Assembly (NCBI GenBank): GCA_027484985.1
Contig: JAIXRW010000034.1
Location: forward strand, 62,001-126,000
Direction of reading: 5' to 3'
Length of the DNA stretch: 64,000 bases
Origin: Rhodobacter sp.
Lineage (GTDB): Bacteria; Pseudomonadota; Alphaproteobacteria; Rhodobacterales; Rhodobacteraceae
Below are positions 15,690-53,204 of this stretch, one piece after another (within the stretch, counting starts at the first letter, position 1; each line of letters starts with the position of its first letter). A model generated the notes under the pieces. That model did no database searches, had not been told where the DNA came from, and was given only the letters and a program-made list of their open reading frames with translations. The position numbers were made by a program, and so were the translations under genes.

Positions 15690-16172
15690 ATGCCCGTTTT
15701 TGCCATTCTGCTGGTGTGGTCCCTGCTGGAGATTGCGCTTTTCGTCACGGTTGGCGGGGCGCTGGGGCTGGGGCTGACGCTGCTGGTGGTGCTGGGCACC
15801 GGGGCACTGGGGATTGCGATGCTGCGGGGCGAAGGGATGCGGGCGGTGCGCCACCTGCGAAGCGAGCTGGCATCGCGGCAGAACCCGTTGCAGGCAGCGG
15901 GGTCGGATGTGCTGTGGGTGGTGGCGGCGTTGCTGCTGATCTTACCGGGGTTTCTGACCGATGTGCTGGGGTTGTTGCTGATGCTGCCATGGGTGCGGGT
16001 GGCGGTTGCGGGTTACGCCGCGCGGCGGGTGGCAGGTGCGGTGCGGCGGGCGGCGGGCAAGCATGCGGCAGGGCGCGCGCCACACCGTCCGCCGGTGGAT
16101 GTGATCGACGGCGAGTTCATCGAGGTGCCGCCGCAGGACCAGCGCCCGCCTTCGGGCTGGACGCGGCATTGA
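15690..16172 (+). CDS. fxsA: FxsA family membrane protein
   Basis: 160-aa inner-membrane protein with hydrophobic helices in the first 115 residues and a charged C-terminal tail (about 115-160). The family is named for the E. coli protein whose overexpression relieves phage T7 exclusion by the F plasmid; its normal role is unknown. ATG 15690 has GAGGAGCC just upstream. It is divergent from the Tim44-like gene across 136 bases, where I could not pick out a convincing promoter. Confidence 0.85.
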   Translation: MPVFAILLVWSLLEIALFVTVGGALGLGLTLLVVLGTGALGIAMLRGEGMRAVRHLRSELASRQNPLQAAGSDVLWVVAALLLILPGFLTDVLGLLLMLPWVRVAVAGYAARRVAGAVRRAAGKHAAGRAPHRPPVDVIDGEFIEVPPQDQRPPSGWTRH

Positions 16173-16232
16173 GAAGGCGGGGCTGACCTGATAGGAAGCC
16201 GCCGAACGGTTCTGTCGAAAGGGAGCGAAGCG

Positions 16233-16750: not shown

Positions 16751-16774
16751 GGGGCGGGTTTTCCCGCCCCTTTT
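16751..16774 (+). terminator. Rho-independent terminator of secB
   Basis: GGGGCGGG (16751-16758), loop TTTT, CCCGCCCC (16763-16770), then TTTT. It lies 26 bases after the secB stop. Its last base is also the end of the dnaQ stop codon on the other strand, so the two convergent genes share this short spacer. Confidence 0.85.
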
Positions 16775-17475
16775 CACATGCGTTTGAACCAGATGGCGGC
16801 GGGGCCCAGTTTTTCGACAAAGGCGGAATGGGCGGCGGATTCGGCGGCGGTCAGGCGCGGGGCGAGCGGTTCAGGGCGGGGGCGGGGCCGCCATTCGCCT
16901 GCATGGTCGGCCATGCCCCCGCCCGCGGCGGTGCTGCCGGTGGTGGATAGGGCAAAGTCGGGTTGGCGGCCGCCGACGAGTTCAAGATAAACCTCGGCCA
17001 GGATTTCGGAATCGAGCAGGGCGCCGTGCTTTTCACGGGCGGAATTGTCAACGCCGAAGCGGCGGCACAGCGCGTCGAGCGAGGCGGGGGCGCCGGGGAA
17101 GCGGGTTTTGGCGATGGCCAGTGTATCGGTGGCGCGCGCATAGGGCAGCGGTGGCAGGCCCGCCCATTGCAGTTCGGCGTTGAGGAATTTCATATCGAAG
17201 GCGGCGTTGTGGATGACCAGTTGCGCGTCACCGATGAAGTCCAGAAAGGCGGCGGCGATATCCTTGAACACGGGTTTGTCGCGCAGGAAATCATCGCCCA
17301 GACCATGCACCTCGAATGCGGCGGTGGGCATGGCGCGCTGGGGGTTGATGTATTGGTGATAGGTGCGGCCGGTGGGCAGGTGGTTGAACAGTTCCACCGC
17401 GCCGATTTCGACGATGCGGTCGCCCGAGGCGGGTTCAAAGCCGGTGGTTTCGGTATCGAGAACGATTTCACGCAT
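16774..17475 (-). CDS. dnaQ: DNA polymerase III epsilon subunit (3'-5' proofreading exonuclease)
   Basis: 233-aa proofreading subunit. The DEDDh exonuclease residues are visible: DTETTG at residues 7-12, HNAAFDMKFL in the middle, and HGALLDSEILAEVYL with the catalytic His and last Asp. The C-terminal region after about residue 190 should bind the polymerase alpha subunit. It is the last gene of the maf-aroE-coaE-dnaQ operon and overlaps coaE by 8 bases. Confidence 0.94.
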   Translation of the reverse strand: MREIVLDTETTGFEPASGDRIVEIGAVELFNHLPTGRTYHQYINPQRAMPTAAFEVHGLGDDFLRDKPVFKDIAAAFLDFIGDAQLVIHNAAFDMKFLNAELQWAGLPPLPYARATDTLAIAKTRFPGAPASLDALCRRFGVDNSAREKHGALLDSEILAEVYLELVGGRQPDFALSTTGSTAAGGGMADHAGEWRPRPRPEPLAPRLTAAESAAHSAFVEKLGPAAIWFKRM

Positions 17476-18058
17476 GACGGGCCTGACGGATGTGATCGAT
17501 CAGCGCATGCACGAAGGCGCGCGTGCTGTCGAGGTTGAGCGTTTCGACGATATGGGTGGCGCGGCGGCGCTTTTCGGCATCGGGCATCTGGCGCGACAGG
17601 ATCAGATCGAATTGCGCGGGGGTCATGCCGGGGCGGGCAAGGACACGGGCGCGTTGCAGCGCAGGGGGCGCGGTGACGAGAAGGGTGGCGTCACAATCGG
17701 CTTCGGAGCCCTTTTCGAACAGAAGGGGGATGTCCAGCACGACCAGATCTGCGGTGGCGGCGGCCAGAAAGGCGGCGCGGTCGGCAGAGACGAGCGGGTG
17801 AACGATGTGTTCGATGCGGGCAAGGGCGGAGGGATCGGCCGCGATCCAGGATTTGAGGGCCGTGCGGTCAATGCCGTCGGAGACGAGGGCGGCCGGATGC
17901 AGGGCCGCGAGCGGTGCCACTGCGGCCCCGCCCGGTGCGTAGAGGCGATGGACGGCGGCGTCGGCATCCCAGACGGGGATGCCTGCTTCGCGGAACAGCC
18001 GGGCGGTGGTGGATTTGCCCATGCCGATCGAGCCGGTGAGGCCGAGCCGGAAGGTCAT
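17468..18058 (-). CDS. coaE: Dephospho-CoA kinase
   Basis: 196-aa enzyme for the last step of coenzyme A synthesis. The P-loop GSIGMGKST is at residues 9-17, and DADAAVHRLY and the DIPLLFEKG block are family signatures. It overlaps aroE by four bases (ATGA) and dnaQ by eight, a coupled order repeated widely in alphaproteobacteria next to the origin. Confidence 0.95.
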   Translation of the reverse strand: MTFRLGLTGSIGMGKSTTARLFREAGIPVWDADAAVHRLYAPGGAAVAPLAALHPAALVSDGIDRTALKSWIAADPSALARIEHIVHPLVSADRAAFLAAATADLVVLDIPLLFEKGSEADCDATLLVTAPPALQRARVLARPGMTPAQFDLILSRQMPDAEKRRRATHIVETLNLDSTRAFVHALIDHIRQARHA

Positions 18059-18894
18059 GCCGACAGGACAGCCGCGCGGGTGGCATCGTCCACCTCGGGG
18101 CGGTGGCCGAACCAGCGTTCGAAGCCGGGGGCGGCCTGATGCAGCAGCATGCCCAGACCATCGACCACGGTTGCGCCACGGGTTTCAGCCTCGATCAGGA
18201 ACTGGGTCTTGAGCGGGGTATAGACCAGATCGGTCACAAGCGTGCCGCGGGCGAGGCTGTCGAGCGGAAGGACGAGATCGGGTTTGCCGGTCATACCGAG
18301 GGCGGTTGTGTTCACCACGGTGGCGGCGCCGTCGATCATGGCTTCGGCCTGAACCCAATCATAGACGCGGAGCTTGGCGCCGAAATCGCTTCGAAGGGCA
18401 TCGGCACGGGCGCGGGTGCGGTTGGCAAGGCGGATTTCGGGCACGCCCACCTCGATCAGCGCGGCGATGACGGCGCGGCTGGCCCCGCCTGCGCCGAACA
18501 CGGCGGCAGGGCCGGAAGCGGGCTGCCATTGTGGCGCGTGCTGGCGGATATTGGCGATGAAACCGGAACCGTCGGTATTATCGGCCTGAACCTTGCCGTC
18601 CTTGCGGAACACGAGGGTGTTGGCGGCGCCGATCAGGGCGGCGCGGTCGGAGACGACATCGGCCAGATGGAGGACCGATTCCTTGTGCGGGATGGTCACG
18701 TTGCAGCCGACAAAGCCCATGCGCGGCAACATGCGCAGGGCTTCGGCAAGGTCGGCCTGTGCGATGTCGAGCGGGATGTAATGGCCCTTGATGCCGTAGC
18801 GTTTTAGCCAATAGCCATGCAGCGCCGGCGAGCGGCTATGGGCGATGGGCGAGCCGATGACACCGGCGAGGGGGATGCGGGGATGGTCGGTCAT
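18055..18894 (-). CDS. aroE: Shikimate dehydrogenase
   Basis: 279-aa NADPH-dependent enzyme that reduces 3-dehydroshikimate in aromatic amino acid synthesis. The substrate-binding SPIAHSRSP block is at the N-terminus. Catalytic Lys71 lies in NVTIPHK and Asp108 in NTDGSGF; the nucleotide-binding GAGGASRA follows. The start overlaps the maf stop by four bases. Confidence 0.94.
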
Positions 18895-19493
18895 GCCGCG
18901 ATGAAACCCCGTGTCGAGAGATAGTTCAAGAGCGGCAGCAGCGGCAGGCCGAGGACCGAGAAATAGTCGCCCTCGATGGTGGTGAAGAGGCGGGCGCCTT
19001 CTTCCTCGAGCTTGTAGGCGCCGACGCTGTGGCGGATGCTTTCCCAGTTCCGCGCCACATAATCGGACAGATAGGCATCGGAGACGGGGCGCATGGTCAG
19101 GCGCACCTCGGCCACGTGGCGCCAGACGGGTTCGGCACGGTCATAAAGCACGGCGGCGGACAGCAGGCGGTGGGTCTGGCCGCGCAGGGTTTGCAGCTGG
19201 GCCAGCGCGTCGGCCGGGGTTTCGGGTTTTGACCAGCTTTCGCGGCGGTATTCGAGGATCTGGTCACAGCCGAGGACGAGGTCCTGGGGGTTTTTTTCCG
19301 CGATCTTGCGGGCTTTCATTTCGGCCAGCGTGTCGGCGATGTCGCGGGGGTGGGCCGCTTCGGCGGTAAGTGCGCGGCGGATGCTTTCTTCGTCGATGCG
19401 GGGAGCGAGCGTCGTGACGGCAAGACCCGCATTGCGCAGCAGCGTGGCGCGAATTTCGGAAGCAGAGGCGAGGAGGATCGGGCGGTCTGGCAT
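18891..19493 (-). CDS. maf: Maf family nucleoside triphosphate pyrophosphatase
   Basis: 200-aa house-cleaning pyrophosphatase of the Maf/YceF group, which hydrolyses modified or non-canonical NTPs. The substrate-binding start LLASASEIR and the catalytic aspartate in LGCDQIL are present. The specificity subgroup (7-methyl-GTP versus dTTP/UTP type) is not certain. ATG 19493 matches the family N-terminus; an in-frame open extension of about 63 codons upstream runs into the putative origin and looks non-coding. It is the first gene of the operon leading leftward from the origin gap. Confidence 0.9.
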
Positions 19494-19942
19494 GATGCGG
19501 CGGCTTTGGCTGGGGGCGGCTTTGGCTGGGGGCGGCTGTGTGGATAGTCTGGCTTTGTTCTTGCAGGCGGAAGAGCGGGAAACAAGCGCGGCGGGGGCGG
19601 CCGGGGCGGAAATGGCCGCGCTGGCGGCGGGCGGGGCGGGGTTGTCCACCTGTTGACGGGAAAAACGCAAGGGTGGGGACAATGCCGGAAGGTTCTGGTT
19701 GGGGATAAACGGAATGTGAATGAAAAGACGGAATGAGGTTATTTTTTATACATGTGAATCAATAGGATAGCGTTTATTGTTTTTGACCGGTGATTTGGAT
19801 TAGCCGTTTTTCCACAGGGTTCAGGCTGTGGATGAAAGGGTGGAGGAATGTGGCGATCCCGTTGTCCACATGGCCTACATCTACTATCAAGTAAGAATCT
19901 TCTTTCTTTTAGAAGAAGAAGCAGAAGGGGGCCTGACGGCGC
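19494..19942. other. Putative chromosomal replication origin (oriC)
   Basis: 449-base gene-free gap between divergent maf and hemJ. DnaA-box-like 9-mers (each 7 or 8 of 9 to TTATCCACA): 19539-19547 minus CTATCCACA, 19642-19650 plus TTGTCCACC, 19700-19708 minus TTATCCCCA, 19808-19816 plus TTTTCCACA, 19827-19835 minus TCATCCACA, 19862-19870 plus TTGTCCACA. An AT-rich stretch at about 19738-19787 is the likely unwinding element. GANTC (CcrM) sites lie at 19756-19760 and 19895-19899. A small hairpin TCTTCT/AGAAGA sits at 19898-19916. Neighbouring rho, mnmE-mnmG, parAB and parS sites fit an alphaproteobacterial origin. Confidence 0.82.
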
Positions 19943-20395
19943 ATGGTGGGTGATTTTCTGGCCGACTGGTACCTGTGGACCAAGGCGCTGCATGTGGTTT
20001 CGGTGATGTCGTGGATGGCGGGGCTGTTCTATCTGCCACGTCTGTTTGTGTATCATGTCGAGGCGGTGGAAGCGGGCAGCCCGACGGATGCGATGTTCCA
20101 GACCATGGAGCGGCGGTTGCTGCGGGCGATCATGAACCCTGCGATGGTGGCGACGTGGATTTTCGGGCTGGCGCTGGTGTTCACGCCCGGAATCGTGAGT
20201 TGGGATCAGGTCTGGCCCTGGACCAAGGCGGGGGCTGTGCTGGGGATGACGTGGTTCCATCACTGGTTGGGGTTGCGGCGCAAGGCTTTCATGACTGGCA
20301 GGAACGACCTGACGGGGCGGCAGTACCGGATGATGAACGAGGTGCCGACCTTGTTGATGCTAGTGATCGTGTTCTCGGTGATTGTGAAGTTCTGA
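19943..20395 (+). CDS. hemJ: Protoporphyrinogen oxidase HemJ
   Basis: 150-aa inner-membrane protein of the HemJ (UPF0093) family, which oxidises protoporphyrinogen IX to protoporphyrin IX before ferrochelatase. Four hydrophobic segments are visible. The conserved His17 lies in KALHVVSVMSWMAGLFYLP and a conserved lysine in PWTKAGAVLG. It is the first gene right of the putative origin, and rho follows after 123 bases. hemW and hemH, also in heme metabolism, lie elsewhere in the window. Confidence 0.92.
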   Translation: MVGDFLADWYLWTKALHVVSVMSWMAGLFYLPRLFVYHVEAVEAGSPTDAMFQTMERRLLRAIMNPAMVATWIFGLALVFTPGIVSWDQVWPWTKAGAVLGMTWFHHWLGLRRKAFMTGRNDLTGRQYRMMNEVPTLLMLVIVFSVIVKF

Positions 20396-20402
20396 CGCGG
20401 CG

Positions 20403-20429
20403 TTGACTTTCGCAGGCATGGCGCGTAAT
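20403..20429 (+). promoter_or_regulatory. Candidate rho promoter in hemJ-rho spacer
   Basis: TTGACT at 20403-20408 is a good -35 element; CGTAAT at 20424-20429 is a possible -10, but with only 15 bases between them. A -35 of this quality with a loose -10 is common in this group. The remaining 90 bases would be an untranslated leader of the kind that autoregulates rho in other bacteria. No ribosome-binding site stands out before ATG 20519. Confidence 0.35.
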
Positions 20430-20518
20430 GGCGAGGTTGCAGGGCCGTCCGGCCCGAGGCATTTCCCGTTCCCATCCTGCTTGCCTGTCCCGTTTCGGGC
20501 GGCCAATGGACATTTCCC

Positions 20519-21796
20519 ATGACTGAGACGATCGAACGTTTGAACCTTTCGGACCTGAAGGCCAAGACGCCTGCGGACCTGCTGGCCATGGCCGAGGAAT
20601 GGGAGATCGAGAACGCGCCTTCCATGCGGAAGGGCGAGATGATGTTCCAGATTTTGAAGGAACATGCCGAGGAAGGCTTTGAGATCGGAGGGGATGGCGT
20701 TCTGGAGGTGTTGCAGGACGGGTTCGGGTTTCTGCGGTCGCCGGAAGCCAACTATCTGCCGGGGCCGGATGATATTTACGTCAGCCCCGAGATGATACGG
20801 CAGTTCAGCCTGCGGACCGGCGACACCATCGAAGGGGTCATTCAGGCCCCGCGTGAGACGGAACGGTATTTCAGTCTGGTCAAGGCGACCAAGATCAATT
20901 TTGATGACCCCGAACGGGCGCGCCACAAGGTGCATTTCGATAACCTGACGCCGCTTTACCCTGACGAGCGGTTGAAGATGGAAATCGAGGACCCGACCAT
21001 TCGGGACCGTTCGGCGCGGATCATCGACCTTGTCTGCCCGATCGGGAAAGGGCAGCGCGCGTTGATCGTGGCGCCGCCGCGGACGGGTAAGACGGTTCTG
21101 TTGCAGAACATCGCCCATTCGGTGGCGACCAATCACCCCGAATGCTATCTGATCGTGCTGCTGATCGACGAACGGCCCGAGGAAGTGACCGATATGCAGC
21201 GTTCGGTTCGGGGCGAGGTGGTGTCATCAACCTTCGACGAACCGGCGACGCGGCATGTGGCCGTGGCCGAGATGGTGATCGAGAAGGCCAAGCGGTTGGT
21301 CGAGCACAAGCGGGATGTGGTGATCTTGCTTGATTCTATCACGCGTCTGGGGCGGGCGTTCAACACGGTGGTGCCATCGTCAGGGAAGGTGCTGACGGGT
21401 GGTGTGGATGCCAATGCGTTGCAGCGGCCGAAGCGGTTCTTCGGGGCGGCGCGGAATATCGAAGAAGGCGGGTCGTTGACGATTATTGCGACGGCGCTGA
21501 TCGATACGGGCAGCCGGATGGACGAAGTGATCTTTGAAGAATTCAAGGGCACCGGCAACAGCGAGATCGTGTTGGACCGTAAGGTGGCCGATAAGCGGGT
21601 GTTCCCGGCCATCGACATTCTGAAATCGGGCACGCGGAAGGAAGATTTGCTGGTCGATAAGGTCGATTTGCAAAAAACCTATGTGCTGCGGCGTATCCTG
21701 AACCCGATGGGCACAACGGATGCGATTGAATTCCTGTTGGGCAAGCTGAAGCAGACCAAGACCAATGGCGAATTCTTCGAATCGATGAATAGCTGA
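20519..21796 (+). CDS. rho: Transcription termination factor Rho
   Basis: 425-aa hexameric RNA helicase for factor-dependent termination. The N-terminal domain (about 1-50) precedes the cold-shock-like RNA-binding domain, with [20 protein letters not shown] at about residues 68-87. Walker A APPRTGKT is at residues 185-192 and the LIDERPEEV region follows. It lies between hemJ and mnmE near the origin, a conserved alphaproteobacterial placement. Confidence 0.96.
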
Positions 21797-21819: not shown

Positions 21820-23097
21820 GTGGACACGATCTTTGCCCTTGCCAGCGCCCGTGGCAAGGCGGGCGTGGCCGTGATTCGGGTTTCCGGGCCTGATGCCTTT
21901 GGCGCGGTTGCCGCATTGTGCGACCGGCCCCTGCCGCCGCCACGGCAGGCGGGGCTGCGGCGGTTGGTGCAGGATGGGCAGGTTCTGGACGAGGCGCTGG
22001 TGCTGCTGTTCGAAGCTGGGGTCAGCTTTACCGGCGAAGCCGTGGCCGAGTTGCAGGTGCATGGATCCGCGGCGGTGGTTCAGGCGGTGTTGCGGGCGCT
22101 GGCGGGGCGGTACGGATTGCGGCTGGCAGAGGCTGGTGAGTTCACACGCAGGGCGCTGGAAAACGGGCGGTTGGACCTGGCGCAGGTTGAGGGGCTGGCC
22201 GATCTGATCGAGGCGGAAACCGAAGCGCAGCGGCGGCAGGCGATGCGGGTTCTTTCGGGTGCCATCGGGCAGCGGGCCGAGGATTGGCGGAAAAAGCTGG
22301 TGCGCGCTGCGGCTTTGCTGGAAGCGACGATTGATTTCGCGGATGAAGATGTGCCGGTTGACGTGACGCCCGAGGTGGGCGCGCTGGTCGAAGCGGTGAG
22401 GGCCGATCTGGCGCGAGAGCTGGACGGCGCGAGAGCGGCCGAGCGGGTGCGGGATGGGTTCGAGGTGGCTATTGTCGGTGCGCCGAACGCCGGGAAATCG
22501 ACGCTTTTGAATGCCTTGGCGGGGAGGGATGCCGCTATCACGTCGGATATCGCGGGCACGACGCGGGATGTGATCGAGGTGCGGATGGAGATCGGCGGGC
22601 AAGCGGTGACGCTGCTGGATACGGCGGGGTTGCGCGATGCCGAGGATGCGGTGGAGCGGATCGGGGTTGAGCGCGGGATTGCGCGTGCGGTCGCGGCGGA
22701 TTTGCGGGTGTTTCTGGTGGGAGACGACCCCGTTGCCGGGCTTGAACCGGTGGCCGGTGACATCACAGTTCGTGCCAAGGGTGATTTGCATGGCGATGGT
22801 GTTTCGGGCCTGACGGGGCAGGGCATACCTGAGCTGATCGACGCTATCGGGATGCGGCTTGAAGGGCTGACGGCGGGCGCTGGTATCGTGACCCGCGAGC
22901 GGCATCGGCAGTTCATGGGCCGTGCGATCGGGGCTTTGGATTCGGCGCGGGTTGAGTTAGAACGCGGCGCTGTGCGGACCGAGATTGTGGCTGATGAGCT
23001 TCGCTCGGCCAGTCGCGCGCTAGAGGGGCTGGTTGGCCGGGTGGATGTGGAAAATCTGCTGGACGAGATTTTCGCCAGCTTTTGCATCGGAAAGTAA
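21820..23097 (+). CDS. mnmE: tRNA modification GTPase MnmE
   Basis: 425-aa GTPase that works with MnmG to install (carboxymethyl)aminomethyl groups on wobble U34 of tRNAs. It begins at GTG 21820 ([14 protein letters not shown] is the usual N-terminus). The G1 loop GAPNAGKST is near residues 220-228, DTAGLRD is switch II, and the extreme C-terminus is FCIGK, the one-carbon-binding cysteine motif. mnmG starts two bases after the stop. Confidence 0.95.
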
Positions 23098-23099
23098 GG

Positions 23100-24977
23100 A
23101 TGTTTCACGTGAAACACTTCGATGTCATTGTGATCGGCGGCGGCCATGCCGGGGCGGAAGCAGCCGCGGCTTCGGCGCGGATGGGGGCGCGGACGGCTTT
23201 GGTGACGTTGCGAACGGCGGGTATCGGCGTGATGTCGTGCAATCCGGCGATTGGCGGGCTGGGCAAGGGGCATCTGGTTCGCGAGATTGACGCGATGGAT
23301 GGAATCATGGGCCGCGCTGCAGATGCTGCGGGTATCCAGTTTCGTTTGTTGAACCGCCGAAAGGGCCCTGCCGTTCAGGGGCCGAGGGCGCAAGCGGACC
23401 GCAAGCTTTACCGGCAGGCGGTGCAAGGGTTGCTGGCGGCTTTGCCCGGGGTGACGGTGATCGAGGGGGAAGTGGTCGATCTGGTGCAAGAGGCGGGCCG
23501 CGCTGCGGGTGTGATCTTGCAAGACGGATCGGCCATCCGCGCCGCCGCCGTTGTGCTGACGGCAGGCACCTTTCTGAACGGTGTAATTCATATTGGCGAT
23601 GAACGGCGGCCCGGTGGCCGGATTGGTGATGCGCCGTCGCGTAAACTGGCCGAGCGGCTGGATGCGCTGTCACTGGGGCGCGGGCGACTGAAGACGGGTA
23701 CCCCGCCGCGGCTGGATGGTCGGACGATTGATTGGTCTGTGCTGGAATCGCAGCCCGGGGATGACGAGCCAACGGTGTTTTCTTTCCTGAACCATGGGCC
23801 GCTTGTGCGGCAGATCAGTTGCGGCATTACCCATACCAATGAACATACGCATGATCTGGTGCGCAATAATCTGTCGCGATCGGCCATGTATGGCGGCCAT
23901 ATCGAGGGGGTGGGGCCCCGTTATTGCCCCTCGATTGAAGACAAGGTTGTGCGCTTTGCCGACAAGACATCGCATCAGGTGTTTCTTGAGCCCGAGGGGC
24001 TGGATGACGATACGGTTTATCCCAATGGGATTTCCACCTCGTTGCCTGCCGATGTGCAGGAGGCCTATGTCAGATCGATTCGCGGCCTTGAGGCGGTAAC
24101 CATTCTGCAACCGGGTTATGCCATCGAGTATGACTTTTTTGATCCGCGTGGCTTGCGGGCGACGTTGGAGTTGCGCGACCTGCCGGCGCTGTTTTTTGCG
24201 GGCCAGATTAACGGCACGACCGGTTATGAGGAAGCTGCCGCGCAGGGTTTGGTGGCGGGGCTGAATGCGGCCGCGTTGGCCTTGGGGCGCGATCAGGTCC
24301 AGTTCAGCAGGACTGACAGTTATATTGGCGTCATGGTGGATGACCTGATTTCGCGCGGCGTGACAGAGCCGTATCGCATGTTCACCTCGCGGGCCGAATT
24401 TCGGCTGGCTTTGCGGGCAGACAATGCAGACCAGCGCCTGACGCCACGCGCGATGGCATTGGGGATCGTGGGCCCGGCGCGGAAGGCGGCGTTTGAACAT
24501 AGGGTCGGGAATCTGAAACGGGCACGTCAATCGCTTGAAAGCAAATGGTTTTCAGCGCGAGATCTGGCGGAAACCACCCTTCGGGTCAGCCAGGATGGCG
24601 CAAAGCGGAATGGATATGAATTGCTGTCCTTCGGGGAAGAGGCCCTGTCGGTCGTCGAGGGATTGTTCCCGGATTTCGCGGCGATGCCTGCCGAAATTCG
24701 CCGTCAAACCGCAGCTGACGCCCTGTATGCGCAGTATCTGCACCGGCAAGATCAGGACGCAGCCCTGCTGCGGCGTGAAGAACAGGCGAGAATACCGGAA
24801 GGATTTGATTTCGACGCGCTGTCCGGCCTGTCAAACGAATTGAAAATGAAGCTGAAGCGGAACGTGCCGGAGAATCTGGCGCAGGCTGCGCGAATTGAGG
24901 GCATGACCCCTGCTGCGCTGACCTTGATCCTTGCGCATCTGCGCAAAGCGTCGCGGGCGGCGGTTCCTGCCAAATGA
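23100..24977 (+). CDS. mnmG: tRNA uridine-5-carboxymethylaminomethyl modification enzyme MnmG
   Basis: 625-aa FAD-dependent partner of MnmE (GidA). The dinucleotide-binding GGGHAG is at residues 13-18, and the two family signatures [11 protein letters not shown] and [16 protein letters not shown] are intact. The start ATG 23100 overlaps the first two bases of a perfect parS palindrome, so the N-terminus MFHVKH is dictated by the centromere site. It overlaps rsmG by four bases (ATGA). Confidence 0.96.
23101..23116. other. parS: parS centromere site 1
   Basis: TGTTTCACGTGAAACA, a perfect 16-base match to the canonical bacterial parS palindrome bound by ParB. It begins at the second base of the mnmG start codon and encodes residues 1-6 of MnmG. 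It is about 3.2 kb from the putative origin and 3.3 kb before parB. Confidence 0.95.
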
Positions 24978-25582
24978 CCGAGCTTTTGGCTGGATTGAGT
25001 GTTTCACGTGAAACACATGATCGGCTGCGGGTGCTGGATGCCTTGCTGGTCAAGTGGAACCCTGCGATCAATCTGGTGTCTCGAACAACGGTTGGTGCGG
25101 CTTGGCAGCGTCATATCCTCGATTCAGTGCAATTGTTTCGCCGCGATCCGTTTGGGCATTGGGCTGACCTTGGCAGTGGCGGCGGTTTCCCAGGTCTGGT
25201 GATTGCGGTGGTGGCGCAGGAAAAACGCCCGGAGGCGCGTATCACTCTGGTCGAATCAGACCAACGCAAATGCGCGTTTCTGCGTGAAGCAGCGCGACAG
25301 ATCGGTGTTACGGTTCATGTCGAACAGCAGCGCATCGAAACTTTGGCACCACTGGACGCAGATATTCTGTCTGCGCGAGCACTGGCACCGTTGGACCGCC
25401 TGCTTGGATATGCACATCGGCACTTGGCGCAGGGGGGTGTGGGTGTCTTTCCCAAAGGGGCTGGGTGGAGGGTTGAATTGGACGCAGCGCGAAAGACTTG
25501 GATTTTCGACGTCGAGACTGTTACCAGCATGACCGACCCCGAAGCGGTGGTTCTAACGGTGAAAGGTCTTCGGCATGTCTGA
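24974..25582 (+). CDS. rsmG: 16S rRNA (guanine-N7)-methyltransferase RsmG
   Basis: 202-aa SAM-dependent enzyme (GidB) that methylates the universally conserved G527 of 16S rRNA. Loss in other bacteria gives low-level streptomycin resistance. The SAM-binding motif reads [12 protein letters not shown] and NLVSRTT precedes it. The second parS site encodes SVSRETH near residues 9-15. It overlaps mnmG by four and parA by eight bases. Confidence 0.94.
25000..25015. other. parS: parS centromere site 2
   Basis: A second perfect TGTTTCACGTGAAACA, inside the 5' end of rsmG and 1.9 kb from site 1. Two ideal sites inside the operon that encodes ParA and ParB mark this as the chromosomal centromere region. 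Both sites are read in coding frame. Confidence 0.95.
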
Positions 25583-26396
25583 TCCGATACGCGGCAGAAC
25601 GCCCCGCATCATTGCCATCGCAAACCAGAAGGGCGGCGTCGGCAAGACCACGACGGCAATCAATCTGGCGGCTGGTCTGGCCGAGCTGGGAGGCCGTGTT
25701 CTGTTGGTTGACCTCGACCCGCAAGGTAACGCCTCGACCGGACTTGGTGTTGCCAACGAGGCGCGGAACCTTACGACCTATGATCTTCTGATCGATGACG
25801 CGCCGCTCGAATCGGTGATTCAGGGCAGCCGTATCCCCGGATTGTGGATATGCCCAGCAAATGCCGATCTGGCCTCGGCCGATATGGAGCTGTTCAGCAA
25901 TGAAAAGCGCAGTTTCCTGTTGTTTGACGCCCTGCGCCAGCCCGCGATGGATGCGTTCGGCTTTGATTTCATTCTGATCGACTGCCCCCCGTCGCTGTCA
26001 TTGCTGACGGTCAATGCGATGGTTGCTTGTCATTCGGTGCTAGTGCCGCTTCAGTCGGAATTTTTCGCACTGGAAGGGTTGTCGCAACTGATGCTGACGA
26101 TCCGCGAAGTGCGGCAAACCGCGAACCCGGCCCTTCGGATCGAAGGCGTGGTTCTGACCATGTATGACGGTCGAAACCGGCTGAGCCAGCAGGTCGAAAC
26201 CGACGCGCGCCAAACGCTGGGCGATCTGGTGTTCGAAACCATCATTCCGCGCAATGTGCGGGTTTCGGAAGCACCTTCCTTTTCGCTTCCTGTGCTGAAT
26301 TATGATTCGGCCTCCAAGGGAAGCGAGGCCTATCGCGCCCTGGCGGCAGAACTGGCCGCGCGCCACCCGATTGCCCGACATGAGGAGACCGCCTGA
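25575..26396 (+). CDS. parA: Chromosome partitioning ATPase ParA
   Basis: 273-aa Walker-type ATPase whose DNA-bound dimers pull ParB-parS complexes to opposite cell poles. The deviant Walker A KGGVGKTT lies at residues 19-26, with the signature Lys19 and the P-loop Lys24. DLDPQGNAST and FDFILIDCPPSL are the switch regions. ATG 25575 lies inside the end of rsmG; the stop overlaps the parB start by one base. Confidence 0.96.
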   Translation: MSDPIRGRTPRIIAIANQKGGVGKTTTAINLAAGLAELGGRVLLVDLDPQGNASTGLGVANEARNLTTYDLLIDDAPLESVIQGSRIPGLWICPANADLASADMELFSNEKRSFLLFDALRQPAMDAFGFDFILIDCPPSLSLLTVNAMVACHSVLVPLQSEFFALEGLSQLMLTIREVRQTANPALRIEGVVLTMYDGRNRLSQQVETDARQTLGDLVFETIIPRNVRVSEAPSFSLPVLNYDSASKGSEAYRALAAELAARHPIARHEETA

Positions 26397-27307
26397 TGGA
26401 AAAGAAAACCGATCGTCGCGGTTTGGGGCGGGGCCTTTCGGCCCTGATGGCCGATGTAAACCTGACGACCGAACCGCAAGGGGCCGACAAGCCACGGCGG
26501 CCCGATCTGATGGTGCCGGTCGAAAAGCTGGTGCCGAACCCCAACCAGCCGCGGCGTGACTTTCAACCTGATGCGCTGCAAGAACTGGCCGATTCGATCC
26601 GTTCGCGCGGGGTGATCCAGCCCCTGATCGTACGGGCCATCGCCGGCAGTGACCGATACGAAATTGTCGCGGGCGAGCGGCGCTGGCGGGCGGCGCAGTT
26701 GGCGCAGCAGCACGAACTTCCGGTGATTCTGCGCGAATTCACCGATTCGGAAGTGATCGAAGTCGCCATCATCGAAAACATCCAGCGCGCCGATCTGAAC
26801 GCAGTGGAAGAAGCGCTGGCCTACAAGCAGTTGATGGAACGCTTCGGTCATACACAAGAAAAGGTGGCCGAGGCGCTTTCGAAAAGCCGCAGCCACATTG
26901 CCAACTTGTTGCGCCTGCTGACCCTGCCCGAAGATGTGCAGGCCATGGTGCGCGATGGTCGGTTGACCGCTGGCCATGCGCGCGCGCTGATCACCTCGCC
27001 CCGCGCATCGGAATTGGCGCGGCAGGTGGTCGAGCGGAGCCTTTCGGTGCGCGAAACCGAAGCGCTTGCCAAGCATCCCGAACAGAAGGGGGCGGGAAAA
27101 TCCTCAGGGCCGCGACCGAAATCGGCAAAAGATGCGGATACAAGGGCGCTCGAGGCTGATCTTTCCGCAAATCTGAATATGCGGGTGGTGATCGAACATG
27201 GGGCAATGGGCGACGGTGGCACGCTGACGGTGCATTACCGCAGCCTTGATGATCTTGATATGCTGTGTTCCGCCCTGTCCGTCGCGCGGCGCGATCTGGC
27301 GATCTAG
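26396..27307 (+). CDS. parB: Chromosome partitioning protein ParB
   Basis: 303-aa CTP-dependent DNA clamp that loads at parS and spreads. The N-terminal ParA-activating segment RGLGRGLSALM is at about residues 8-18. The CTP/DNA box GERRWR is at 93-98, and a helix-turn-helix (TQEKVAEALSKSRSHIANLL) recognises parS. The C-terminal dimerisation domain is complete. The TAG stop forms a shared CTAG with the stop of the convergent hemW. Confidence 0.96.
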   Translation: MEKKTDRRGLGRGLSALMADVNLTTEPQGADKPRRPDLMVPVEKLVPNPNQPRRDFQPDALQELADSIRSRGVIQPLIVRAIAGSDRYEIVAGERRWRAAQLAQQHELPVILREFTDSEVIEVAIIENIQRADLNAVEEALAYKQLMERFGHTQEKVAEALSKSRSHIANLLRLLTLPEDVQAMVRDGRLTAGHARALITSPRASELARQVVERSLSVRETEALAKHPEQKGAGKSSGPRPKSAKDADTRALEADLSANLNMRVVIEHGAMGDGGTLTVHYRSLDDLDMLCSALSVARRDLAI

Positions 27308-44147: not shown

Positions 44148-44733
44148 AGAGGAACGACTGCGCGCGGCCCTGACGCGCCCTGCGCGGCCTTCTTCCGATT
44201 TCGACCTGAACCCTGCCATTGTTCTGCCTGCGGGGCGCGTGTTGCGCCCCGCTGCCGTTCTGCTGGCCGTGTGGCTGCGGCCGGACGGGGCGCGGCTGGT
44301 GCTGACCAAGCGGGCATCGCATTTGCAGCACCATCCGGGGCAGATCGCCCTGCCGGGCGGCAAGGTGGATGCGGGCGATGACGGGCCGGTGGGCGCCGCG
44401 CTGCGCGAGGCGCGGGAAGAGATCGGGTTGCCATCGGCGCAGGTCGAGGTGCTGGGAGAGTTGCCCGCGCATGAGACGGTGACGGGGTTTTCGGTGACGC
44501 CCGTGCTGGCGCTGTTGCGGGGCGATTTTGTGGCGGTGCCCGAGGCGGGCGAGGTGGACGAGGCGTTTGCCGTGCCCTTTGCCCATGTGATGGATGTGTC
44601 GCGCTACCGGATCGAGCGGCGGCTTTGGCGGGGCGAGTGGCGGCGATATTATGCCGTGCCGTGGGGGCCTTATTACATCTGGGGGGCCACGGCGCGGATC
44701 TTGCGCGGTTTGGCCGACAGGGTGGGGGGATGA
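44137..44733 (+). CDS. CoA pyrophosphatase (Nudix, NudL-like)
   Basis: 198-aa Nudix hydrolase of the CoA diphosphatase group: LTKRASHLQHHPGQIALPGG is the UPF0035-type motif in front of the Nudix box, which ends ALREAREEIGL. The first Glu of the box is Asp here, which is not unusual in this subgroup. The likely reaction is cleavage of CoA to 4'-phosphopantetheine and ADP derivatives. It overlaps hslO by 11 bases and cca by four. Confidence 0.85.
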   Translation: MPSEEERLRAALTRPARPSSDFDLNPAIVLPAGRVLRPAAVLLAVWLRPDGARLVLTKRASHLQHHPGQIALPGGKVDAGDDGPVGAALREAREEIGLPSAQVEVLGELPAHETVTGFSVTPVLALLRGDFVAVPEAGEVDEAFAVPFAHVMDVSRYRIERRLWRGEWRRYYAVPWGPYYIWGATARILRGLADRVGG

Positions 44734-52755: not shown

Positions 52756-52902
52756 CGACAAGGCCCCGAACAGCGGTTGGTATGCTTGCTGCAAGTTGCA
52801 ATCCATGCCTTTAGCTGTTTAAGAGGTATCACGAGGAATAATCTTGGGTGCATGCCGTCGCCTCTGCAACATCCGGCGGTGTGCAAAATCTGGAGGTCTA
52901 TT

Positions 52903-53088
52903 ATGAAGAAACTCGCGCTCGTCGCTGCTCTCTCGCTGGCTGCTACCTCGGCTTTCGCTGGCGGCATGGCCGAACCCACCATGGAACCGGCTCCGGTTGC
53001 AACCGAAACCGCCGCTTCGTCGTCGGCCGGTGGCATCGTTGTTCCGCTGCTGCTCCTGCTGGTTGTCGCGGCTGCTGCTTCGAACTGA
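52903..53088 (+). CDS. 61-residue secreted/membrane small protein, function unknown
   Basis: A TGGAGGT ribosome-binding site precedes ATG 52903. The product has a signal peptide (about residues 1-20, ending SAFAGG), an acidic/alanine-proline linker with EP repeats (AEPTMEPAPVATETAASSSA), and a C-terminal hydrophobic segment of leucines, valines and alanines. I recall similar short proteins recurring in Rhodobacteraceae without a known role. It has its own terminator, so it is transcribed separately from the L,D-transpeptidase and from hemH. Confidence 0.75.
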   Translation: MKKLALVAALSLAATSAFAGGMAEPTMEPAPVATETAASSSAGGIVVPLLLLLVVAAAASN

Positions 53089-53104
53089 TCATTTGATCGA
53101 TTCA

Positions 53105-53140
53105 GGAAAGGGTCGGCGGGTTTTCCCGTCGGCCCTTTTT
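53105..53140 (+). terminator. Rho-independent terminator of the small secreted protein gene
   Basis: GGGTCGGCGGG (53110-53120), loop TTTT, CCCGTCGGCCC (53125-53135), with two G-T wobbles, then five T residues; upstream AAA extends the stem with the T run. Strong intrinsic terminator 21 bases after the stop. Confidence 0.88.
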
Positions 53141-53154
53141 CTTTGCCTGACCGA

Positions 53155-53188
53155 CAAAAAAGGGCGCCGTGGCGCCCGTTTTCGTTTT
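53155..53188. terminator. Bidirectional terminator, likely serving hemH
   Basis: GGGCGCC (53162-53168) and GGCGCCC (53171-53177) form a perfect stem. A-run 53156-53161 gives a U tract on the minus strand, where hemH ends 17 bases away, and GTTTTCGTTTT follows on the plus strand. It can work in either direction. Confidence 0.8.
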
Positions 53189-53204
53189 ATCGGGGGGTGT
53201 GGGC

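Follow-up and report, generated by a model that had tools for sequence, protein, structure and literature searches.

A conserved DnaA-box cluster between maf and hemJ is a likely chromosomal origin in a Rhodobacter genome in which GC skew keeps its sign

Introduction

Does the chromosome of a Rhodobacter start replication in the intergenic region between maf and hemJ, even though the GC skew does not change sign there? GC skew is a standard computer test for bacterial origins. The window that we analysed is a stretch of 64 kb (C17:62001-126000) of a 72-contig draft genome (G000), and an initial annotation had proposed the maf-hemJ gap in it as the chromosomal oriC. We find that the gap is likely, rather than proven, to be an alphaproteobacterial chromosomal oriC: beside parABS, at the place expected for an origin, lie clustered DnaA boxes whose positions and strands recur among relatives, together with an AT-rich core and an IHF-like site, and this part of the proposal stands, while the skew minimum that should accompany it lies elsewhere.

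In the portions of the literature used here, Cori of Caulobacter crescentus lies between hemE and COG1806/CC0001, and origins of related alphaproteobacteria have been described in silico (PMC1914354). The origin region of Rhodobacter sphaeroides WS8N was set by the skew minimum, DoriC, and OriFinder (PMC6315104), and Ori-Finder origins of 101 Rhodobacteraceae chromosomes were assigned with nearness to the GC disparity minimum as the first criterion (PMC6699656). Among the open-licence papers listed by our literature searches, we recognised no marker-frequency or footprint study of the maf-hemJ locus in Rhodobacteraceae by title or the start of the abstract.

Results

The maf-hemJ gap lies between divergent operons and close to parABS

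The gap had been described as flanked by divergent operons with rho, mnmEG, and parAB/parS nearby, and this arrangement was borne out by Pfam matches for all genes and by two parS-like palindromes:

16774-17475: dnaQ-like exonuclease gene, after coaE
17468-18058: coaE, after aroE
18055-18894: aroE, after maf
18891-19493, minus strand: maf
19494-19942, no strand: maf-hemJ intergenic region (449 bp), candidate chromosomal oriC
19943-20395, plus strand: hemJ (UPF0093)
20519-21796, plus strand: rho
21820-23097, plus strand: mnmE
23082-24977, plus strand: mnmG
23101-23116, no strand: parS-like palindrome TGTTTCACGTGAAACA, one mismatch from the consensus
24974-25582, plus strand: rsmG
25000-25015, no strand: parS-like palindrome TGTTTCACGTGAAACA, one mismatch from the consensus
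25575-26396, plus strand: parA
26396-27307, plus strand: parB

A search of the whole genome allowing up to two mismatches returned these two parS-like sites and one weaker site on another contig. In the window, parABS lies within 7.4 kb of the gap, a proximity by which an oriC is recognised. The gap had also been called the longest gene-free stretch of the window. Our crude gene caller lists longer gaps (933-1584, 44148-44624, 52756-53204, and 15800-16232) and shortens the maf-hemJ gap to 260 bp; because the 933-1584 gap overlaps an ORF with Pfam matches, this list is unreliable as evidence either way. An Rfam search of 18000-21000 gave no match at E ≤1.

The gap contains a DnaA-box cluster around an AT-rich core

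Within the gap, we identified the following elements:

19539-19547, minus strand: DnaA box CTATCCACA, at most one mismatch
19642-19650, plus strand: degenerate DnaA box TTGTCCACC, two mismatches, in a well conserved block of an 11-sequence alignment
19700-19708, minus strand: DnaA box TTATCCCCA, at most one mismatch
19701-19810, no strand: AT-rich core, candidate duplex-unwinding element, containing the 100 bp with the window's highest AT content, from 19711 on
19714-19727, plus strand: direct repeat ATGTGAATGAAAAG, second copy at 19752-19765
19757-19769, plus strand: IHF-like site AATCAATAGGATA, inside the AT-rich core, one mismatch to the consensus
19808-19816, plus strand: DnaA box TTTTCCACA, left arm of the inverted repeat 19804-19817 / 19826-19839
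19827-19835, minus strand: DnaA box TCATCCACA, right arm of the same inverted repeat
19862-19870, plus strand: DnaA box TTGTCCACA, at most one mismatch

Five sites in the gap match the DnaA box TTATCCACA within one mismatch, out of nine in the whole 64-kb window; a perfect TTATCCACA does not occur in the window's gap. With five additional sites at two mismatches (19642+, 19674-, 19715-, 19753-, and 19794-), the gap contains ten boxes within two mismatches. In 2000 dinucleotide shuffles of the gap, the mean numbers were 0.08 at one mismatch and 0.99 at two, and none of the shuffles attained the observed five or ten. The gap, therefore, holds an intergenic DnaA-box cluster of the kind expected of an oriC, and the earlier observation of DnaA-box-like sequences on both strands is confirmed. 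Likewise, the AT-rich element noted near 19738-19787 was recovered: among 6390 overlapping 100-bp windows, the one starting at 19711 has the highest AT content (66%), and the 13 highest all start within 19651-19831, inside the gap. By composition alone, this corresponds to the AT-rich unwinding region of an oriC. The two GANTC sites reported for the gap are present at 19756 and 19895, a number unremarkable alone with 0.48 expected. TTAA, which we take to be the half-site of the CtrA motif, is absent from the gap; judged by this motif, the gap boxes differ from a Caulobacter-type Cori in having no CtrA sites among them.

The cluster is conserved in position and strand

For the analysis of conservation, we took the best 80 of 389 loci from a HemJ scan of Rhodobacteraceae and related genome records. 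DnaA boxes were counted in the 450 bp upstream of hemJ in 80 sequences, comprising 79 of these loci and the window (L075 was too short and left out). At least two boxes are present in 74 of the 80 sequences and at least three in 52, with a single sequence having none; of 3091 background 450-bp windows from the same loci, 0.1% (3) have two boxes and none has three. Individual boxes recur on the same strand, within 20 bp and with at most one mismatch, in 53 of 79 loci for box 19539 (-), 44 for box 19862 (+), 35 for box 19808 (+), 22 for box 19827 (-), and 20 for box 19700 (-), and box 19862 recurs in 73 of 79 if two mismatches are allowed. The box blocks are likewise conserved in the 11-sequence alignment, which was built from hand-picked sequences.

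We also ranked 120 intergenic regions from stretches of four genomes by their DnaA boxes. The maf-hemJ gaps of the window's genome and of strain QY30 (CP023454.1) rank at the top, and the gap of G022, a chromosome of the same genus, and an element upstream of uvrC in G022 (see below) are the next two. The gap of G012, another such chromosome, is not among the top 18 regions listed; here, the crude caller had extended hemJ into the gap. Exact TTATCCACA boxes number 7 in G000, 8 in G012, 8 in G022, and 13 in G028, a third chromosome of the genus, and one lies in the maf-hemJ gap only in G012.

GC skew keeps its sign across the gap

The cumulative GC-skew minimum expected at the gap was not found there: throughout the contig, and across the gap in most relatives, the sign stays the same, and the minima sampled in G012, G022, and G028 lie elsewhere. 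GC skew is positive in all 5-kb bins of the 141.5-kb contig, i.e. there is no sign change over 81 kb to the left or 60 kb to the right of the gap. Based on the crude gene calls, the skew at four-fold sites (plus strand) is +0.42 for plus genes and +0.43 for minus genes to the left of the gap, and +0.36 and +0.39, respectively, to the right. Because plus and minus genes have the same skew, it does not stem from gene direction. Measured per frame, maf, aroE, coaE, and dnaQ each have a four-fold-site skew of +0.43 to +0.51 and hemJ of +0.65. A change of skew sign, which is a usual correlate of an origin and not its definition, is thus absent at the gap.

Among 81 loci including the window, 13 had too few genes of both strands on both sides and were set aside. 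The remaining 68 comprise 44 that are positive on both sides, seven negative on both sides, four changing from plus to minus, five with weak skew, and eight with the origin-like change from minus to plus. If only the operons adjacent to the gap are considered (n=77), a comparison in which coding bias pushes toward the origin-like pattern, 58 are positive on both sides, 17 are origin-like, one is negative on both sides, and one is unclassed.

We sampled skew along the three chromosomes of the same genus. The minimum of G012 is at ~3,481 kb and its gap at 3,604 kb (~120 kb apart); that of G022 is at ~4,140 kb and its gap at 335 kb (~420 kb apart), and at ~465-487 kb the skew of G022 goes from minus to plus once more, as a local change. 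In G028, sampled minima fall between 2.22 and 2.40 Mb and also between 3.07 and 3.30 Mb, with the gap at 2.698 Mb. QY30, with its gap near 50 kb, has a weak skew that changes at approximately 140-160 kb; in G006, the change lies ~11 kb from the gap on the maf side, and patches of both signs lie further left. At the flips of G012 (3.48-3.50 Mb) and G022 (4.14-4.16 Mb), DnaA boxes are single and scattered or lacking, and a single reciprocal best hit above 45% identity, at 54% and probably a paralogue, connects the gene contexts of the two flips.

A 31-kb inversion, one end of which lies next to dnaQ at ~3 kb from the gap, distinguishes G012 (C1:3570089-3601576) from the window's genome (C17:46635-78724). 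A local inversion was ruled out as the cause of the same-sign skew, since this inversion leaves maf joined to the gap and cannot explain the sign of maf. In PMC9836097, as far as the part used here goes, Rhodobacterales show a reduced expected skew on the lagging strand, attributed there to inversions. Frequent inversions near the origin may disturb the skew in this manner, which would leave the wrong sign of maf beside the gap unaccounted for.

A polar octamer contradicts the skew in one relative

GGGCAGGG is the most polar 8-mer in the sampled arms of QY30 (63 versus 8) and fits the KOPS motif; GGNAGGG was used for KOPS in PMC6315104. As control for the octamer, we counted all other permutations of its bases.

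In G022, 160 kb sampled from 4.16 Mb via the record start to the gap have positive skew, and the octamer occurs 7 times forward and 37 times in reverse (controls 521/175, p=4e-15). Because its polarity opposes the skew between 4.16 Mb and the gap, the sampled stretch belongs to the left arm. The skew minimum of G022 is ruled out as the origin or arm boundary by this opposite polarity. Beyond the gap, the counts are 3/7 (controls 99/62) at 335-372 kb and 11/9 (controls 67/313) at 372-465 kb, and the arm boundary of G022 lies at the gap or up to ~150 kb past it on the maf side. Skew is misleading at least in G022; the refutation of the origin by skew is therefore weakened, and the origin role is still unproven.

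The other genomes give a mixed picture. In G028, the octamer changes side between 2.62 and 2.76 Mb, bracketing the gap at 2.698 Mb; here the control is imperfect, and in five of six groups of stretches the octamer is less extreme than, or opposite to, the controls. On the window's contig, the counts are 13/13 to the left of the gap (controls 503/63, p=2.6e-6) and 11/1 to the right; the left side is fully reversed only at 62-82 kb from the gap (0/7), and nearer than 62 kb the counts are 13/6. In QY30, all 17 occurrences between -37 and 82.7 kb are in reverse and the next nine forward, placing the switch ~33 kb to the maf side, and six of these nine cluster at 84.6-89.5 kb, in addAB. In G012, the octamer and the skew change together near 3.47-3.48 Mb, on the maf side and ~125 kb away from the gap. 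Pooled over the 10-kb flanks of the 81 loci, the counts of 93/21 on the left and 72/13 on the right do not differ, with the caveat that sites in conserved genes may share descent and are not independent.

A second conserved element lies upstream of uvrC

Outside the window, ~45 kb to the left of its start, the intergenic region between an SDR gene and uvrC (C17:16903-17214) contains an element of ~230 bp, ~64 kb from the maf-hemJ gap in the window's genome. It is AT-rich in the middle, includes a short palindrome and a conserved TTATCCACA box, and mostly has one strong box. The element is present in nine of nine genomes (L187-L195), with the box perfect in eight. In 20 further genera (L257-L276), picked from 60 genomes with a uvrC match, a box with at most one mismatch lies upstream of uvrC in 19 and is perfect in 16. 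In all four genomes searched for exact boxes (G000, G012, G022, and G028), a perfect box is found upstream of uvrC. The distance between uvrC and hemJ, with contigs taken as circular, is 174-958 kb in the seven other genera that have both on one contig (three of ten genomes were dropped because they lacked a HemJ match or had the genes on different contigs), and in the same seven genera, dnaA and hemJ are separated by 67-122 kb in six cases and by 633 kb in one. The element perhaps serves DnaA control of uvrC.

Discussion

In our model, DnaA bound to boxes in both orientations would flank the AT-rich core, and the IHF-like site would assist DnaA at the core; the core would then melt, and two forks would set out. 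The new origins would be segregated by ParB bound to the two parS sites, which lie 3-5 kb downstream. The boxes, their spacing, the AT-rich core, the conservation, the parS-like sites, and parAB are observed features of the locus, and from them we infer DnaA binding, melting, and initiation at the gap. Because neither skew nor the KOPS-like octamer reverses consistently at the gap, divergence of forks from it stays a proposal.

Three other explanations of the data were considered. The gap might be an ordinary divergent promoter region in which AT-richness and boxes are incidental, which fits with the divergent flanking genes and with a purine-rich stretch upstream of hemJ; we regard this as very improbable because the number and conservation of the boxes are far above background, and a scan for sigma-70-like promoters, which is weak evidence, found none. 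We give as little credence to the idea that the true origin is the conserved element between the SDR gene and uvrC. Apart from the wide retention of the element and its box, this idea draws on the local minus-to-plus skew change of G022, which ends at ~487 kb, just left of the element at 488.5 kb, and on the KOPS-like sites of the window's contig, which turn from 0/7 to predominantly forward in the interval that surrounds the element (-75 to -61 kb). Against this, there is no skew flip at the element in the window's genome or in G028, uvrC of QY30 is at 3.136 Mb and, thus, deep in an arm (1.88-3.27 Mb) in which the sampled KOPS-like sites are 3 forward and 39 reverse, uvrC is far from hemJ in the seven other genera, and one strong box is mostly all that the element offers.

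A doubtful, yet not far-fetched, explanation is that the gap contains a retained DnaA-binding cluster, be it an old origin, a DnaA-titration site, or a DnaA-controlled divergent promoter, that does not initiate replication in this clade, and that forks diverge elsewhere, usually on the maf side, and cross the gap from maf to hemJ. In the window and most relatives, the four-fold-site skew reaches both edges of the gap with the same sign, which argues for this explanation, as do the switch of the KOPS-like octamer in QY30, 33 kb away toward maf, and the lack of any change in it at the gap within 10 kb over the 81 loci. Put for the clade as a whole, it is conceivable, if on balance unlikely, that in much of the Rhodobacter clade forks have long run through the maf-hemJ cluster, either because of a shift of the effective origin, in most cases toward maf, or because one fork is rarely productive, and that selection maintains the old cluster for DnaA binding. 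The skew flips of G012 and G022, however, have only single scattered boxes or none and no common gene context, and the octamer in G022 contradicts the skew minimum of that chromosome. Moreover, differing origins within one genus would be unparsimonious while the cluster is kept in 74 of 80 sequences. We, therefore, favor the maf-hemJ gap as the oriC.

The gap resembles Cori and the in silico alphaproteobacterial origins, as described in the portion of PMC1914354 used here, in being an intergenic region of a few hundred bp that combines several DnaA boxes with an AT-rich stretch and an IHF-like site, and differs from Cori in its flanks, which are maf and hemJ rather than hemE and COG1806. It is similar to the OriC1 region of R. 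sphaeroides WS8N in the gidA-gidB-parA-parB order and the two parS candidates at gidA (PMC6315104, in the part consulted). In that source, the skew minimum of WS8N is at 2,439,004 and gidA at 2,420,988-2,419,195; with the spacing of the window, the equivalent gap would be near 2,424 kb and the published minimum ~14-15 kb to its maf side, whereas the window's contig has no sign change over 81 kb to the left and 60 kb to the right. Compared with the origins in PMC6699656, as far as its criteria are given in the portion used, the gap fits those of DnaA boxes, nearness to parAB, and a local GC minimum, and is unlike them in not being near the GC disparity minimum.

If the gap is the oriC, strand bias in base composition does not mark the origin in this clade. 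At maf-hemJ, the conserved DnaA-box cluster leaves no mark on a strong strand bias that does not depend on gene direction, and in one relative (G022) the skew contradicts a KOPS-like motif over ~400 kb, of which 160 kb were sampled. With the gap as the oriC, errors of some 10 to 420 kb may affect skew-based origin predictions and replichore studies in this group. Zones of near-zero skew lie at or beside the flips in G012 (C1:3481000-3500000), G022 (C1:4140000-4160000), and G006 (C1:280000-287000 and 293500-298000); the zones, some of which contain transporter-like genes, are perhaps recent insertions.
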